Shown here: positions 56,848 to 64,000 of the stretch, piece after piece
How positions within the stretch are numbered: the first letter of the stretch is position 1
Layout: every line of letters begins with the position of its first letter
Source: Streptomyces sp. AA1529
Lineage (GTDB): Bacteria > Actinomycetota > Actinomycetes > Streptomycetales > Streptomycetaceae
DNA: 64,000 nt
Reading direction: 5' to 3'
Assembly (NCBI RefSeq): GCF_000280905.1
Contig: NZ_ALAP01000083.1
Location: 1 to 64,000, forward strand
Position numbers and translations under genes: made by a program
The notes under the pieces: generated by a model
The model's database searches: none
What the model saw: the letters and a program-made list of their open reading frames with translations, nothing else
What the model was told of the DNA's origin: nothing

Positions 56848-57027
56848 ATGGAGCAAGAGGGTTCTCAGCAGGAGCAGTCGGTGCCCTGTCAGGACTGTGA
56901 ATGGTTCCGAATGATGATCAGCAGGGCTGCCTGGGACCCGAAGTCGCGGGCTGACCTCGAAGCGCTCTTTGGCGCACATTTGCACCGGAAGCACGCGCCG
57001 ACCGAATCACGGCTCCGGAGTGTGTGA
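56848..57027 (+). CDS. Small protein of unknown function
   Basis: A 59-residue protein from ATG 56848, with AGGTGGGAAG upstream. CQDCEWFRMMISRAAWDPKSRADLEALFGAHLHRKH contains two Cys and a His-rich tail, consistent with a small metal-binding fold. It is divergent from the XRE regulator gene, with 137 bases between the starts, and one base before the next small gene. Similar small genes often accompany XRE-DUF397 pairs. Function unknown. Confidence 0.68.
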   Translation: MEQEGSQQEQSVPCQDCEWFRMMISRAAWDPKSRADLEALFGAHLHRKHAPTESRLRSV

Positions 57028-57028
57028 G

Positions 57029-57226
57029 ATGTGGGCCGTGGGTGACGCGGCGCAGGACAGGAAGACCGGGAGGACGGGGGAGATCATCCAGGTGACGGGA
57101 CCCGCGCCGTTCATCTACCGGCTCAAGGTCCAGGAGGACGGCCAACCACCCCTCGTCGTCTACCGGTACGGCGACCAGTTGCAGGCCGTTCACCGGCCCG
57201 AGCCCGTCGCCGTGCGTCGTACGTGA
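57029..57226 (+). CDS. Small beta-rich protein of unknown function
   Basis: A 65-residue protein that starts one base after the previous stop. MWAVGDAAQDRKTGRTGEIIQV has the shape of a small SH3-like barrel (KOW-like), with YRLKVQEDGQPPLVVYRYGDQL. No enzyme motif is seen. It is probably cotranscribed with the small gene before it. Confidence 0.68.
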   Translation: MWAVGDAAQDRKTGRTGEIIQVTGPAPFIYRLKVQEDGQPPLVVYRYGDQLQAVHRPEPVAVRRT

Positions 57227-57289
57227 AGGGACACCGCAGGTCCGGCGGGAAACCGAGGCCGCACCTGACCACAACGCTCACCGCAACCC

Positions 57290-60283
57290 CTACCGCTGCC
57301 TGCGCACCAGTTCGTGGAACAGTCCGTCCGGGTCGGCCAGCAGCTGCGCCGGTGCGCCCTGCTGGACGACCCGCCCCCGCGACATGACGATCACCCGGTC
57401 GGCGTCCAGCACCGTGGACAGCCGGTGGGCGATGACGATCCGGGTGGCCCGCAGCTCCCGGGTGGACTCGGTGACCACGCGCTGGGTGGCGTTGTCCAGC
57501 GCGCTGGTGGCCTCGTCGAAGAAGAGCAGACGCGGGCGCCGCACCAGCGCCTGCGCGATCATCAGGCGCTGCCGCTGGCCGCCGGAGACGGTGCCGCCGC
57601 CGTCGGACAGCATGGTGTGCAGCCCCATCGGCATGGCCTTGATGTCCTCGGCGACGCCCGCCCTGCGCGCCGCCTCCCACACCTCCTCCAGCGGGAAGGT
57701 CTCGGCACCGCAGATGCACTCCAGGATGGAGCCCGCGTGCGGCTGCGCGTTCTGCAGGACGACCCCGCACTGGCGGCGCACCGCCGCCTGGTCCAGCGAG
57801 GAGAGGTCCTGCCCGTCGTAGCGCACCTCGCCGGAGACCGGCCGCTCGAAGCCGATCAGCAGCCGCAGCAGTGTCGACTTGCCGCAGCCGCTCGCCCCCA
57901 CGATCGCCACGAACTCCCCGGGCTCCACCCGGAAGGAGACGCCGTCCAGGACCGGCGGCCCGTCCTCGGAGTAGCGGAACGCCACGTCCCGCACCTCCAG
58001 CGCGCCCGACAGCGTGCCCGGCTGCACGCTGCCGCCGCGCACCTCGGGCAGCTCCCGCAGCACCGGCTTGAGCTGCTCGTACATCGGCAGTACGGCCGCA
58101 CACGAGATGAGCGCGTTGGTCAACTGCGTGACGGAGGTCAGCAGCAGCGTCATGGCGGTGGTGAAGGTGAGGAACCCGCTGGGGGACAGGGTGCCCCGGG
58201 CCGGACCCGCCAGCAGCACGAACAGCAGCAGCATCGCCAGCGGCAGATAGACCGCGTTGACGACCGTGCTCAGATTGCGGATGCGCCCGGCCCGCCGCTG
58301 CAGCTCCCGGCTGCGGGCGAACTCCGTGGCCCAGGCCGCGTACGCGAACGACTCGGCCGCCGCCACCCGCAGCTTCGGCAGCCCCCGCAGCGTCTGGAAC
58401 GCCTGATTGTTCAGCTTGTTGTTGAGCTTCACCAGCCGGCGCTGCCAGCGCAGCTGCCACAGCCCGGTCGCGGCGAACACCGCCGCGACGACCGTCAGCA
58501 CCCCCAGCGCCGCGAGGGCGAGCGGCACGCTGTAGGCCAGCAGCAGCACCAGGTTGACCGCGGCCAGGGTGCCGGACTGCACGACGGTCGAGCTGATGCC
58601 CGACAGCACCCGTCTGATGGCGCTCACCCCCATGGCGGCGCTGGCCAGCTCCCCGGTGGAGCGCTCGGCGAAGAACCGCGTGGGCAGCCGCAGCAGCCGG
58701 TCCCACACCGCGGGTTGCAGACTCGCCTCGATCCGGCCCTCCAGCCGCAGCAGTGCCGTGTTCTGCAGCAGCATGAACGCCGCCGCCACCACCGCCGTGC
58801 CCACCAGCCCGAGGGCGGCCTGCACGATGAGACCCTTCTCCGCGGCCGGTACGTACGCGCCGAGCACCTGCCCGGTGGCCACCGGCACCAGCGCACCGAG
58901 GCCGACCGCGACGAGCCCGCTCAGCACCAGCGTGAGCAGGTCGCCGCGGGCGCCGTGCAGCGCGAACCGCAGCAGCCGCCGGGCGGGCAGCGGCTGTTCG
59001 GGCAGCGGCCGGTAGAACATCACCGCGCGCGGCGCGAAGGCGCCCGCGTTCGACGGGCCGATCCGCCAGCGGCTGCCGCTGCCGGGCTGCACGGCCTCGT
59101 ACCGGCCGCGCCGCCACAGCAGCGCCACCGGCGCGCCGCTCGCGGCACGGTGGCCCACCAGCGGTCCGGCGTTCTCCTTCCACCAGTCCCCGGACAGCCT
59201 CACCGGGCGGGTACGCAGCCCCGAGGTGAGCGCCAGCCGCTCCACGGGGTCCATGCGGTCGTCCCGGGAGAGCCCTTCGGGGGGTGGCCGCAGGGTGACT
59301 CCGGCCGCCTCGGCGACCGCCCGGCACACCGCGAGCGTGCTGTCCTCGGTGCGCTCTCCCGCGCCGCCGGGACCGCTCCGTGCCGAGGTGTCGATCGAGG
59401 CGAGCAGCGCCTCGTCGGCCTCGGCGCGTACCGTCTCGCCCGCCTCCATCCCGGCGGCCGTGCGGTCCTCGTGGGCGCGCTCCAGCTGGTCGATCCAGCG
59501 GTCCAGGGTGGACAGCAGCCGGGCGAGCTGGTCGACCATGAGCTGCCAGGTCGCCCCGTCGACCAGCAGCTCGCCCGCGGTCCCGTACCGCACGCTGCCC
59601 GGTGCCACCGGCATCCACAGGATGTCGTCGTCGGTCGCCGGGTCCTGCCCGGCTCCGGACCGCTCGTGCCCGGGGCGGCCGTCCAGCGGGGCCTCGAACA
59701 GCGCCCGCAGCCCGCGCCCCACGCCCCGCACGAAGGCGTCCTCCAGCGGGCCGAGCCCGGCCTGGTCGCCGTACGCCGCCGCACCGGCGGTGCCGTAGGC
59801 CGGGTACGCGCCGGTGTCGTGGCCGGCGTATCCGCCGGGGCCGTACCCCTCCTGATACTGCGGGAACAGCTCCAGCAGCGGGATCCGGCGCAGCACGGCG
59901 CCGCGCACCGGGCGTCCCACCAGCGTGTGCCGGGGTCCCTGGACGGGGCCGAGCAGCAGGGTGCCCGCCGCCAGCCGTCCCAGGAAGTGCCAGTGGCCCT
60001 GCCCGGCGGCGTCCACCGCGAACACGTCCATGGCGCCGCCGGCCACCAGCCACAGCACGTGCGGCCCCTCCAGCTCCGGTCCGCCGCCGGGCGTGTGCGC
60101 CACCGCCTCGCCGAGCTGCCCGAAGTGCGCGATCACCACGTCGGTCACCGTGCCGGTGCCGGTACCGGTGCCGGTACCGGTGCCGGGCGCCGTGTGGTGC
60201 GGCGCGCCGTGCACCGCGGGGTCCGCGGCCGGGTCCACCGCGGGGTGCCGCGGCGGGCCCCCGGCCGGATGGGCGTACGTCAC
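57290..60283 (-). CDS. NHLM-type bacteriocin export ABC transporter, second subunit
   Basis: A 997-residue protein of the TIGR03797-like type. A ~420-residue cytoplasmic N-terminal region with a cupin-like sequence precedes six membrane helices and an ABC ATPase: Walker A IVGASGCGKST, signature VSGGQRQRLMI, Walker B LLFFDEATSALD, and switch His in IAHRLST. No C39 peptidase domain is present. The start is GTG 60283, with GAGG upstream, nine bases after the C39 transporter. A Gly-Thr repeat near residues 34-45 comes from hexamer tandem repeats. It likely pairs with the upstream C39 transporter to export the Gly-Gly peptide. Confidence 0.92.
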   Translation of the reverse strand: MTYAHPAGGPPRHPAVDPAADPAVHGAPHHTAPGTGTGTGTGTGTVTDVVIAHFGQLGEAVAHTPGGGPELEGPHVLWLVAGGAMDVFAVDAAGQGHWHFLGRLAAGTLLLGPVQGPRHTLVGRPVRGAVLRRIPLLELFPQYQEGYGPGGYAGHDTGAYPAYGTAGAAAYGDQAGLGPLEDAFVRGVGRGLRALFEAPLDGRPGHERSGAGQDPATDDDILWMPVAPGSVRYGTAGELLVDGATWQLMVDQLARLLSTLDRWIDQLERAHEDRTAAGMEAGETVRAEADEALLASIDTSARSGPGGAGERTEDSTLAVCRAVAEAAGVTLRPPPEGLSRDDRMDPVERLALTSGLRTRPVRLSGDWWKENAGPLVGHRAASGAPVALLWRRGRYEAVQPGSGSRWRIGPSNAGAFAPRAVMFYRPLPEQPLPARRLLRFALHGARGDLLTLVLSGLVAVGLGALVPVATGQVLGAYVPAAEKGLIVQAALGLVGTAVVAAAFMLLQNTALLRLEGRIEASLQPAVWDRLLRLPTRFFAERSTGELASAAMGVSAIRRVLSGISSTVVQSGTLAAVNLVLLLAYSVPLALAALGVLTVVAAVFAATGLWQLRWQRRLVKLNNKLNNQAFQTLRGLPKLRVAAAESFAYAAWATEFARSRELQRRAGRIRNLSTVVNAVYLPLAMLLLFVLLAGPARGTLSPSGFLTFTTAMTLLLTSVTQLTNALISCAAVLPMYEQLKPVLRELPEVRGGSVQPGTLSGALEVRDVAFRYSEDGPPVLDGVSFRVEPGEFVAIVGASGCGKSTLLRLLIGFERPVSGEVRYDGQDLSSLDQAAVRRQCGVVLQNAQPHAGSILECICGAETFPLEEVWEAARRAGVAEDIKAMPMGLHTMLSDGGGTVSGGQRQRLMIAQALVRRPRLLFFDEATSALDNATQRVVTESTRELRATRIVIAHRLSTVLDADRVIVMSRGRVVQQGAPAQLLADPDGLFHELVRRQR
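60149..60187. repeat. Hexamer tandem repeat inside the second NHLM transporter
   Basis: GGTGCC and GGTACC alternate about six times in 60149-60187. In the gene frame they encode alternating Gly-Thr. Repeat number could vary without changing frame. Confidence 0.8.
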
Positions 60284-60291
60284 CGGATGCC

Positions 60292-62598
60292 TCAGTGCTC
60301 CTCGACCAGTCGCGCGTACGGGCCCCGCGCGGCCAGCAGTTGTTCGTGCCGTCCCCGCTCCACCGCCGTGCCGCGGTCCAGCACCACGATCTCGTCGCTG
60401 TCCCGCACGGTGCTCAGCCGGTGCGCGATCAGCACGCAGGCGCAGCCGCGCCGCCGCAGGTTGTCGATGATGACGGCCTCGGTCTCCGCGTCCAGCGCGC
60501 TGGTCACCTCGTCCAGCACCAGGATGCTGGGCCGCCGCACCAGTGCGCGGGCGATCTCCAGCCGCTGCCGCTGGCCCCCGGAGAAGTTGCGGCCGTCCTG
60601 CTCGACCCGGCTGTGCAGGCCGCCGGGGCGGCGCGCCACGTCCTCGTGCAGCGCGGCGTCCCGCAGCGCCTCCGCCACCGCGTCGTCGCTGATCGAGGGG
60701 TCCCACAGCGCCACGTTGTCCCGCACGGTGCCCTCGAAGAGGAACACGTCCTGGTCGACGAAGGAGACGGAGGCGGCCAGCGCCCCGCGCGGCAGGTCCT
60801 CCAGCCGCTGCCCGTCGATGCGGATGGCGCCCTCCCACGGCGTGTACAGACCGGCGATCAGGCGGGAGACGGTGGATTTGCCGCTGCCCGAACCGCCGAC
60901 CAGCGCGAGCTGCCGACCGGGGCCCACGGCCAGCGACAGCCCGCTCAGCAGGGGCTTGTCCAGCGGGTTGTAGCCGAAGGTGACGTTCTCCAGCGTCACG
61001 TGCCCGGCCAGCCGCCGGGTGCTGGCGGGCGGCTCGCGCCGGGTGTAGAGCGGATCGGCGGGAAAGGTCTCCACGTCCTTGAGCCGGGCGACGTCAGCGG
61101 CGAAGTCCTGGATGCGGCCCGCCACCGAGTTCAGCCGCGTCAGCGGCGCGGTGAAGCTGGTGACCAGCGCCTGGAACGCGACCAGCAGCCCCGCCGTGAT
61201 GGCTCCCTCCACCGCCCGCGTCCCGCCGATCAGCAGGATCAGGGCGCTGTTGAGGGTGGCCAGGGTGGGCGCGGTCACGGCCAGCGCGGCGCTCGGCACG
61301 CCCAGCCGCTGCTGCACGTCGAGGGTGCCGGCGTGCCGCCCCGCCCAGCGGCGGAAGTAGCCGCTTTCCCCGCCGGTCGCCTTCATCGTCTCGATGAGCT
61401 GCAGACCGCTGTAGGAGATGTTGGTCAGCTTGGCCCGTTCGGCACGCAGCTTCTGCGTGCCGGTGGCCCGCATCCGCACCACCACCCGCATCGCCACCAC
61501 GTTCAGCAGTGCCACACCCACGCCGACGAGGGTCAGCTGCGGGTCGTAGGTCCACAGCAGCGCCGCGTAGCCCACCACGACCACCGCGTCCACCCCCGCC
61601 GCCGCCAGGTCCCGGGCCAGCGTCTCGGCGACGGTGTCGTTGGACTGCAGGCGCTGGACGAGATCGGCCGGGTTGCGCTGCGCGAAGAAGGTCACCGGCA
61701 GCCGCAGCAGATGCCGCAGGAACCGGGCGCTGCTGAGTGTGGAGGAGATCAGCCGGGCACGCAGCAGGTTGCCCTGCTGGATCGCGGTCAGCACGCCGGT
61801 CAGCAGGACGGCGGCGCCCATGGCGGTGAACAGCACCTTCAGCAGCGAGTCCTGCCCGCCGAAGACGAAGCTGTCGATGTAGGTGCGGCTGAGCGCGGGC
61901 ACCGAGGCGCCGACGACGACCAGCAGGAAGCTGGCCACCAGCGCCGCGAGCATCGCGCCCGAGGTGCCGCGCAGCCGCGCGGGCAGCGCGGCCGTCACCC
62001 CGGGCCTGCGGCCGCCCCGGCGGAAGTCCTCGGCGGGCGTGAAGGTCAGCACCACGCCGGTGAAGGAGGAGTCGAACTCCTCCATGGGCACGAATCTGCG
62101 CCCGCGGGCCGGGTCGTTGATGTGCACGCCGCGGCGGCCGAAGCGGCGGCCGAGCCCGTCGAGGACGACGTAGTGGTTGAACTCCCAGAACAGGATGGCC
62201 GGCGCCCGCACCTCGGCCAGCGCCGCGGGCTCCATCTGCATCCCCTTGGCCGTCAGCCCGTAGCCGCGTGCCGCCTTCAGCAGGCTGCTGGCCCGGGAGC
62301 CGTCCCGGGAGACGCCGCAGGCGATGCGCAGCTCCTCCAGCGGTACGTGCCGCCCGTGGTGTCCCAGCACCATGGCCAGCGCCGCGGCGCCGCACTCGAC
62401 GGCCTCCATCTGGAGCACGGTGGGCGTCCGTACGCTGCGCTGCCCGCCCTTGGGCGCCGTCCGCGACCGTCCGGTGCGGGGCGCGGGCGCCGTGCCGCCG
62501 CCGCGGTGCCTGCGCCGGTGCTGCTGCGCGCGCTGCCGCGGGCCCGGCTCCGGGCCCGGTTCGGGGGCCTGTTCGGCGGCCTGCTGACGAGCGGTCAC
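60292..62598 (-). CDS. NHLM-type C39 peptidase-ABC transporter
   Basis: A 768-residue PCAT-type exporter that cuts double-glycine leaders and exports the core. The C39 peptidase is near 65-195 with catalytic Cys in QMEAVECGAAALAMVLGHHG and His/Asp in EFNHYVVLDG. The membrane domain follows from about 215, and then the ATPase: Walker A LVGGSGSGKST, signature NFSGGQRQRLEIARAL, Walker B ILVLDEVTSALD. GTG 62598 overlaps the HlyD stop by four bases. The first ~55 residues are Pro/Arg-rich and variable. Confidence 0.95.
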   Translation of the reverse strand: MTARQQAAEQAPEPGPEPGPRQRAQQHRRRHRGGGTAPAPRTGRSRTAPKGGQRSVRTPTVLQMEAVECGAAALAMVLGHHGRHVPLEELRIACGVSRDGSRASSLLKAARGYGLTAKGMQMEPAALAEVRAPAILFWEFNHYVVLDGLGRRFGRRGVHINDPARGRRFVPMEEFDSSFTGVVLTFTPAEDFRRGGRRPGVTAALPARLRGTSGAMLAALVASFLLVVVGASVPALSRTYIDSFVFGGQDSLLKVLFTAMGAAVLLTGVLTAIQQGNLLRARLISSTLSSARFLRHLLRLPVTFFAQRNPADLVQRLQSNDTVAETLARDLAAAGVDAVVVVGYAALLWTYDPQLTLVGVGVALLNVVAMRVVVRMRATGTQKLRAERAKLTNISYSGLQLIETMKATGGESGYFRRWAGRHAGTLDVQQRLGVPSAALAVTAPTLATLNSALILLIGGTRAVEGAITAGLLVAFQALVTSFTAPLTRLNSVAGRIQDFAADVARLKDVETFPADPLYTRREPPASTRRLAGHVTLENVTFGYNPLDKPLLSGLSLAVGPGRQLALVGGSGSGKSTVSRLIAGLYTPWEGAIRIDGQRLEDLPRGALAASVSFVDQDVFLFEGTVRDNVALWDPSISDDAVAEALRDAALHEDVARRPGGLHSRVEQDGRNFSGGQRQRLEIARALVRRPSILVLDEVTSALDAETEAVIIDNLRRRGCACVLIAHRLSTVRDSDEIVVLDRGTAVERGRHEQLLAARGPYARLVEEH

Positions 62599-63401
62599 GG
62601 CAGCAGCCAGTCGACGGGCCGCTGTGCCGCGAGATGCACGGCGCCGCGCACCGGCGTCGCGGACTCGGGCGCCGACTCGGGGCCCCCGCCCCGGGACCAG
62701 ACGTACCCCGAAGCCGACGAAGCGGAGCGGTCCAGCCGTACCTGGACGGCCAGCGGACGGCCCCCGCGGGTGAAGGTGCGCGCCAGCTCCTCGTCCCCCA
62801 GGAAGCCGCTGATCTGCTCCCGGCTCTGCGGAGTCCGGCCCACGGCCCGCACCGTGCCGCGCAGCAGGCCGTACCGTTCCGCGGACACGGAGCCCACGGT
62901 CAGGTCGACCGCGGCGCCCACCCGCACGGTCGTGCCCTTGTCGGCCGGTACGTAGACCATCGCCACCAGCGGATCGTCCGGCCCCTCGACGCGCTCGACG
63001 GTCGCCACGTCCGCGCCCGTGGTCACCACCGCACCGGTCTCGGCGGCCAGGGACGTCACCCGTCCGCGCGCCACCGCGCGGACGGCGCGTACACCGCGGG
63101 CCGTGTGCACGCTCACCACCGGCGCCCCCTTGTCCACCCGCTGCCCGGCCTCCGCGTGCACGGCGGTCACCTGGCCGGAGACGGGGCTCTGCAGCAGATA
63201 GCTGCCCTCGGCACGGGTCAGGACGCCGGGTGCGGTGAGCTTGGACGAGACGGTTCCGGTGACGGCCCACACACAGCCCGCCGCCATCACCACGAGGGTG
63301 ACGACGAGGACGAGCAGGCCCTGCGGCCGTGCGAAACGCACCGGAACGTCGAGTTCTTCGGGCGACTGCAACTTGGCAAGCGCCTTCTTGCGGAACTCCA
63401 C
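62595..63401 (-). CDS. NHLM-type HlyD-like secretion subunit
   Basis: A 268-residue membrane-fusion-type protein. GTG 63401 (GGGAAGG upstream) is chosen. VEFRKKALAKLQSPEELD is family-typical, followed by one membrane helix (LLVLVVTLVVMAAGCVWAV). A biotinyl-lipoyl-like fold (LQSPVSGQVTAVHAEAGQRV) then follows. The longer frame upstream runs into the hairpin region. It sits between the precursor peptide and the two ABC genes and probably links the exporter to the cell surface. Confidence 0.92.
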   Translation of the reverse strand: MEFRKKALAKLQSPEELDVPVRFARPQGLLVLVVTLVVMAAGCVWAVTGTVSSKLTAPGVLTRAEGSYLLQSPVSGQVTAVHAEAGQRVDKGAPVVSVHTARGVRAVRAVARGRVTSLAAETGAVVTTGADVATVERVEGPDDPLVAMVYVPADKGTTVRVGAAVDLTVGSVSAERYGLLRGTVRAVGRTPQSREQISGFLGDEELARTFTRGGRPLAVQVRLDRSASSASGYVWSRGGGPESAPESATPVRGAVHLAAQRPVDWLLP

Positions 63402-63478
63402 GGCACCTTCCCTTACCTTTCCTTCACGCGATTTCCGCGATCGTTCACCGGGATGTCGAAAGCGGCACGTGACCGTGC

Positions 63479-63513
63479 GCATAAGCCCCGGAACGAGGTT
63501 CCGGGGCTTATGC
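63479..63513 (-). terminator. Hairpin between precursor and transporter genes
   Basis: gcataagccccggaac (63479-63494), loop gag, gttccggggcttatgc (63498-63513): a perfect 16-bp stem. It lies about 90 bases after the precursor stop and 78 before the HlyD start on the minus strand. It may act as a partial terminator that gives more precursor than transporter mRNA. No clear U run. Confidence 0.7.
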
Positions 63514-63600
63514 ATGGCCCCACGTCAGAAGAATTGGGAACACTTCCGGGATGACGCGGGAAAGGTGTCGGTCAAGGACACCTGTCTCCTGGCCGAGAGG

Positions 63601-63795
63601 TCAGGACTGAGCGCCGAGGGAGACGCCGACGCTCGGCAGGCCGTCGGTGCTCACACCGTTGACGGTGTTGCCGACCAGGCCCTCGACGCCGTCGACGGTG
63701 CCGGCGGCCGAACCGAGGGTCTCGTTCAGCAGGCCGCCGGAGACGGCGTCCAGCTCGGCGTCGGCAAGCTCGGCGGTCTCGATCTGGTGACGCAT
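63601..63795 (-). CDS. Double-glycine-leader secreted peptide precursor
   Basis: A 64-residue precursor. ATG 63795 with GAAGGGAAG upstream is preferred over the upstream ATG. The leader, MRHQIETAELADAELDAV and then SGG, ends in the Gly-Gly cleavage site at 20-21. The predicted core is 43 residues, rich in Gly, Val, Ser and Thr, with no Cys and only one Pro. The core repeats the pattern DG/NG with Val (TVDGVEG, TVNGVSTDG). It is followed by a hairpin and by an NHLM-type export operon. No LanM, LanB/C, YcaO or radical-SAM gene is in the window, so the peptide may be unmodified, or modified by enzymes encoded beyond 64000. Confidence 0.83.
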   Translation of the reverse strand: MRHQIETAELADAELDAVSGGLLNETLGSAAGTVDGVEGLVGNTVNGVSTDGLPSVGVSLGAQS

Positions 63796-63892
63796 GAATG
63801 CGCTTCCCTTCATTGCTTTCGGGTTATGAGGGGGACTCGCCCCGGGCGGCACAAAATGCCGATCGGGGCGCTCATCAACCGGGCGTTGGGCA

Positions 63893-63934
63893 CGTCCGGA
63901 AAACCGGACGAACACGAACCGGTAGCACCGGTTC
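63893..63934 (-). promoter_or_regulatory. Two tandem inverted repeats upstream of the precursor gene
   Basis: CGTCCGG-AAAA-CCGGACG (63893-63910) and GAACCGG-TAGCA-CCGGTTC (63916-63934) are perfect 7-bp inverted repeats, about 100-140 bases upstream of the precursor ATG. Both share CCGG half-sites. They look like paired operator sites or a structured leader. No regulator gene is seen in the window. Confidence 0.55.
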
Positions 63935-64000
63935 CGCCCGACTGCCCAGAAAGACAAACACGCCGCCGCAGTTGCTCGCCACTTGAGGCGCCACTCGTCT

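Follow-up and report, generated by a model that had tools for sequence, protein, structure and literature searches.

A predicted secretion system for unmodified double-glycine peptides in Streptomyces, of the SCO0753–SCO0756 type

The four-gene operon near the end of the analyzed window, which comprises bases 1-64000 of a 137-kb contig from the 7.28-Mb genome of Streptomyces sp. AA1529, encodes a small cysteine-free double-glycine peptide together with an NHLM-type exporter. We propose, with a probability of roughly 0.7, that the peptide core is exported unmodified, that the exporter probably also serves stand-alone peptides in much of the genus and that the secreted peptides have a role at the hyphal surface or in development. 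This reading draws on sequence, namely gene content, protein families, leader conservation, co-occurrence, a shared upstream element and the lack of conserved linked tailoring genes among the screened families. In a large part of Streptomyces, unmodified double-glycine peptides quite probably form a dedicated regulon, in which one NHLM-type exporter and unlinked leader peptides (one to several, in many species) are tied together by the element TGG-N15-17-CRTGCTTTGATC, used almost only here. Much effort has gone into mining the genus for modified peptides, and earlier labels for this export system were 'bacteriocin' or 'lanthipeptide-like' cluster. In about 70% of the sampled species the evidence speaks for a system that secretes unmodified peptides, has dispersed cargo and is under a control element of its own. 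The operon as such is not new, because PMC6629963 already describes SCO0753–SCO0756; new here are the extra stand-alone leader genes and the shared upstream element.

Organization of the export operon

All features lie on the minus strand in the order precursor, stem-loop, HlyD-type subunit, C39 ABC exporter and second ABC protein. The SCO0753-type precursor gene (63601..63795) encodes 64 residues, MRHQIETAELADAELDAVSGG|LLNETLGSAAGTVDGVEGLVGNTVNGVSTDGLPSVGVSLGAQS, in which the bar separates the leader (coding part 63733..63795) from the core. The ribosome-binding site GAAGGGAAG (63803..63811) is located 7-8 nt before the precursor ATG and is common to operonic and stand-alone homologues. In profile searches the HlyD-type adaptor (62595..63401) matched NHLM_micro_HlyD (TIGR03794) with 162.5 bits against a cut-off of 156.2, the C39 peptidase/permease/ATPase exporter ABC1 (60292..62598) matched NHLM_micro_ABC1 (TIGR03796) with 988 bits against 853, and the second permease/ATPase ABC2 (57290..60283) matched NHLM_micro_ABC2 (TIGR03797) with 880 bits against 709. 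With all three above the NCBIfam equivalog cut-offs the exporter is of the NHLM type, which confirms the initial annotation of a double-glycine precursor, a C39 exporter, a second ABC protein and an HlyD-like subunit lying together. The Peptidase_C39 domain of ABC1 scored 122 bits and its C, H, D triad is legible in QMEAVECG, NHYVVL and NDPARG.

The HlyD reading frame is open from 63515. Its start is most likely the GTG at 63401 rather than the ATG at 63515, since the alignable part of most homologues begins only at about residue 26-39. The start of ABC1 is at 62598, where GTGA overlaps the HlyD stop, and that of ABC2 is at 60283. Between the precursor and HlyD genes lies a perfect 16-bp stem-loop without a T-run (63479..63513). 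An Rfam search of 57000-64000 returned no RNA family match, and a stem of at least 9 bp precedes the HlyD gene in 71 of 103 operons, compared with 3.5% in random sequence. The stem-loop is likely a processing or attenuation site, through which the precursor would be made in excess over the exporter encoded behind it. The C39 domain of ABC1 would then recognize the leader and cleave behind GG, a site predicted from the adjoining C39 peptidase and the homologue alignment, and the acidic, hydrophobic core would leave the cell through ABC1/ABC2 and the HlyD subunit, without tailoring.

By gene order, homologous leader and Cys-free hydrophobic core, compared with a S. violaceoruber locus and the S. 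coelicolor literature, the operon is of the SCO0753–SCO0756 type. Four genes in the same order, comprising an HlyD protein, two ABC proteins and a small hydrophobic Cys-free peptide, are reported in PMC6629963, which also remarks on the hydrophobicity of the SCO0753 peptide, its lack of Cys and the conserved gene order. The precursor at the S. violaceoruber locus belongs to the same family, and an exopolyphosphatase-like gene lies downstream, as SCO0757 does. Unlike the SCO0753–SCO0756 system, the window has a short, diverged core and an upstream region without the shared element.

Precursor family and the search for tailoring enzymes

Precursor matches were found in 193 of 296 sampled Streptomyces genomes; in a class-wide sample of 297 genomes from 114 genera, only the window's own genus had one. 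A sister operon that is 95% identical also exists. In related alleles of the S. coelicolor clade dN/dS is 0.20 for the leader and 0.52 for the core, so that both are under purifying selection in this clade. Because of the sister operon, the 193 matching genomes and this selection on both parts, the precursor is more than a chance reading frame. One precursor homologue is also present on a plasmid record.

The four genes precursor-HlyD-ABC1-ABC2 occur together in all 103 related loci carrying the exporter, and HlyD followed by ABC1 comes after the precursor homologues examined. Leader and exporter also co-occur at genome level: of the 145 genomes in a 199-genome sample whose ABC1 exceeds the cut-off, 141 have a leader gene, as do 3 of the other 54, counted with kinship ignored. 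The four leader-less exporter genomes have the lowest best ABC1 scores (861-943 bits, all others at least 971). Among the three leader-positive genomes below the ABC1 cut-off, one assembly (G001) is 79% complete, and in another (G179) an NHLM operon adjoins the peptide and ABC1 was matched in three pieces. At that locus (L253, G179:C2:9702400-9714400) the ABC1 matches are separate, as frameshifts would make them; the genome still has three leader peptides.

In the leader alignment the pattern T..E..D..LD...GG is invariant. The core was translated to 43 residues without Cys, as initially annotated, with a pI of 4.05, a mass of 4013 Da and a computed monoisotopic mass of 4011.03 Da if unmodified. 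It is acidic, hydrophobic, rich in Gly, Val and Thr, and 45% identical to the majority Streptomyces type. None of the 91 unique operonic cores contains Cys, Lys, Trp, Tyr or Phe; the net charge is -2.5, Ser and Thr make up 16-19%, and GxxxG motifs number about three per core. AlphaFold, given the precursor alignment, produced no interpretable structure (mean pLDDT 52).

The export subunits pass TIGR03794, TIGR03796 and TIGR03797 like those of the NHLM/NHLP systems (Haft et al. 2010, PMC2887384), for which a conserved leader for handling by the transport cassette has also been proposed (PMC2887384). The precursor itself falls outside the NHLM/NHLP RiPP families. It matched neither the nitrile-hydratase-like (TIGR03793) nor the Nif11-like (TIGR03798) leader at E values up to 1, and a single homologue matched the Nif11 leader, with 15.8 bits, below the cut-off of 32.3. 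Unlike NHLM/NHLP precursors with their long nitrile-hydratase or Nif11 leaders, it has a bacteriocin-type leader of 21-24 residues, and the system has no tailoring enzyme and no Cys for heterocyclization.

The initial annotation had reported no modification enzyme in view and had suggested that the product may be an unmodified secreted peptide of an actinobacterium, to be checked beyond the end of the window. No tailoring gene was recognized in the following 11 kb (64000-75000), where the translations point to small secreted or lipoprotein-like genes, one oxidoreductase-type gene, one transporter and a divergent rRNA-methyltransferase-like gene. For the relatives we used composition-corrected tblastn with queries from the window genome (E 1e-6, about 10 kb). 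YcaO, ATP-grasp and radical-SAM genes gave no match within about 10 kb of the 103 exporter loci at this threshold; homologous clusters are thus not tied to LanM or YcaO, as all 103 loci have the same four genes and no YcaO match.

That the product is a modified RiPP, tailored by an enzyme from elsewhere in the genome, for example through Ser/Thr dehydration or ATP-grasp ester or amide links, is an unlikely explanation. The genome does encode three LanC-like proteins, two YcaO proteins and two graspetide-type ATP-grasps elsewhere, the cores have the Ser and Thr for it, and the precursor scored 22.4 bits against GRASP_targ_2. That score is below the cut-off of 32, as it is in all homologues tested, the operon of related loci contains no tailoring gene, and neither Cys nor Lys occurs in the operonic cores. 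In the window genome, LanC-like, YcaO and radical-SAM genes were found on other contigs only. The nearest tailoring gene found on the contig, a graspetide-type ATP-grasp (C82:97676-98605, TIGR04187, 387 bits), is 34 kb off and none is near the homologues, which places the system outside the graspetides; with no lanthionine synthetase in the cluster and no Cys in the core it is not a lanthipeptide either. The unmodified-peptide reading is well supported, because the cores are free of Cys, Lys and aromatics and no screened tailoring family is conserved nearby. Absence of modification would be the simplest interpretation, and the linked genes and core composition support what the initial annotation had suggested.

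In 20 S. coelicolor-clade loci a LanKC gene lies 8-10 kb upstream of the operon. In the three loci examined we rejected it as a tailoring enzyme of the operon: LanKC sits there in a SapB/RamS-like cluster that has its own Cys-containing precursor. The three class III lanthionine synthetases, each accompanied by a RamS/SapB-like precursor, are at L057:883-3546, L072:6-1695 and L039:12-2244; at the latter two loci a RamS-like paralogue (MALLDLQTMES...) is also present, followed downstream by two more large ORFs. SapB/RamS is a class III lanthipeptide morphogen of Streptomyces that is linked to the hyphal surface and development. Like it, the window peptide is predicted to be small and secreted; SapB needs LanKC and Cys/Ser, whereas the window operon has no LanKC and its core no Cys. 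The SCO0753 peptide is compared with SapB in PMC6629963.

Stand-alone leader peptides and a shared upstream element

At least two leader genes are present in 61 of the 145 exporter-positive genomes, and the extra genes whose places were listed are on another contig or far away, with no exporter nearby. Their cores are distinct and form several types that recur across genomes; Cys occurs in 4 of 36 unique stand-alone cores. Radical-SAM genes were seen near two stand-alone peptides (L242, L246), about 5 kb off and close to the limit of the 12-kb region analyzed, and none near the other 28. In two genomes (L163, near 9832; L179, near 10107) one recurring type has a phosphoglycerate-mutase-like gene close by, as well as an MFS-like transporter. 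In one genome two leader peptides with different cores are found within the exporter neighbourhood (L155, G144:C1:144300-164200).

Upstream of most operonic and stand-alone leader genes, mostly 50-180 bases ahead of the start codon, we found TGG-N15-17-CRTGCTTTGATC or close variants. A looser pattern gave 27 sites in 23 genomes, and 24 of these sites lie ahead of a leader gene. The strict form has 21 sites in these 23 genomes and 22 in another 17-genome set, and all of them precede a leader gene; since both sets include S. naganishii, one of the 43 strict sites was counted twice. No site was found in six exporter-less genomes, nor any occurrence of the reversed pattern. The element resembles a dedicated promoter or operator, and it suggests a dispersed, co-regulated peptide set served by one exporter. 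Across much of the genus, this one exporter would probably also handle stand-alone leader peptides elsewhere on the chromosome that carry the same upstream element. Neither stand-alone cargo nor the element is mentioned in the available text of PMC6629963 on SCO0753–SCO0756.

The stand-alone genes could instead be non-functional relics of duplicated precursors and not cargo. Duplicates would have the leader, ribosome-binding site and upstream element in common with the operonic gene, as is observed. Yet the frames are open, several core families recur across genomes, the element is kept while the remaining upstream sequence has diverged, and stand-alone genes are rare where the exporter is missing, which together make relics very improbable and leave service by the shared exporter as the preferred reading.

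The strict form is missing from 4 of the 17 second-set genomes, the window genome and its sister. Upstream of the window precursor (63796-64000 and beyond) and of its 95% identical sister no shared element was found, and the window genome has one leader peptide only. The evidence for dispersed cargo thus comes from relatives and not from the window strain, whose own genome has a single leader and no shared element. Since this precursor and its sister lack the element that most relatives keep, the window lineage may be regulated differently.

Predicted role of the secreted peptides

The initial annotation had named a signal, a surfactant or a bacteriocin as possible roles. The bacteriocin is the least likely of the three, given the absence of an immunity gene, the acidic Lys-free cores and the purifying selection on the core. 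A core that kills or inhibits related bacteria, like class II double-glycine bacteriocins, would fit the double-glycine leader, the C39 exporter, the GxxxG motifs, the 'bacteriocin cluster' annotation of SCO0753 and weak, sub-threshold leader matches to bacteriocin families. The conserved operon, however, contains no extra immunity-capable gene in 103 loci, and one conserved type in about two thirds of the genus also argues against killing, which we hold to be improbable. Cyanobacterial C39/HlyD bacteriocin clusters (PMC3140520) similarly combine double-glycine precursors, a C39 ABC protein, a second ABC protein and HlyD; in that study precursors were sought up to 20 kb from the clusters, some of which have LanM or other enzymes (PMC3140520). 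The window leader matched the CTB family (NF038167) only below threshold (16.8 bits, cut-off 32).

We favour a hyphal-surface or developmental role over a bacteriocin, on account of the published expression pattern and of cores that are acidic and hydrophobic, unlike cationic bacteriocins. Most probably, the secreted peptides would work at the hyphal surface or in the development of the colony, through adhesion or surface properties or as a signal. In other systems, small unmodified Gly-Gly peptides exported via C39 transporters are pheromones. An extracellular, pheromone-like signal that a receptor detects, the dispersed set supplying several such signals, is a tentative alternative that we think rather unlikely: this precedent, a sub-threshold leader similarity to VP1 and the tight dedicated regulation favour it, but the conserved operon has no receptor or kinase, and cores of 43-50 residues, low-complexity and hydrophobic, are more like a structural or surface peptide. 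The link of expression to a two-component system, as reported in PMC6629963, is a further point for a signal.

According to that study, SCO0753 was the most induced gene (>60-fold) in a strain that grows dispersed and has an activated Sco5282 kinase, the exporter genes of SCO0753–SCO0756 were up about 20-fold in the same strain, and all four genes were nearly silent in the null mutant (PMC6629963). The induction of SCO0753 with dispersed growth is a correlation. From expression data only, Sco5282/Sco5283 is a candidate regulator of the element. Two questions become testable, the action of the peptides on hyphae and the regulator that reads the element, for which Sco5282/Sco5283 is the first candidate. 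SCO0753 is also upregulated in an aor1 mutant (PMC5733086).
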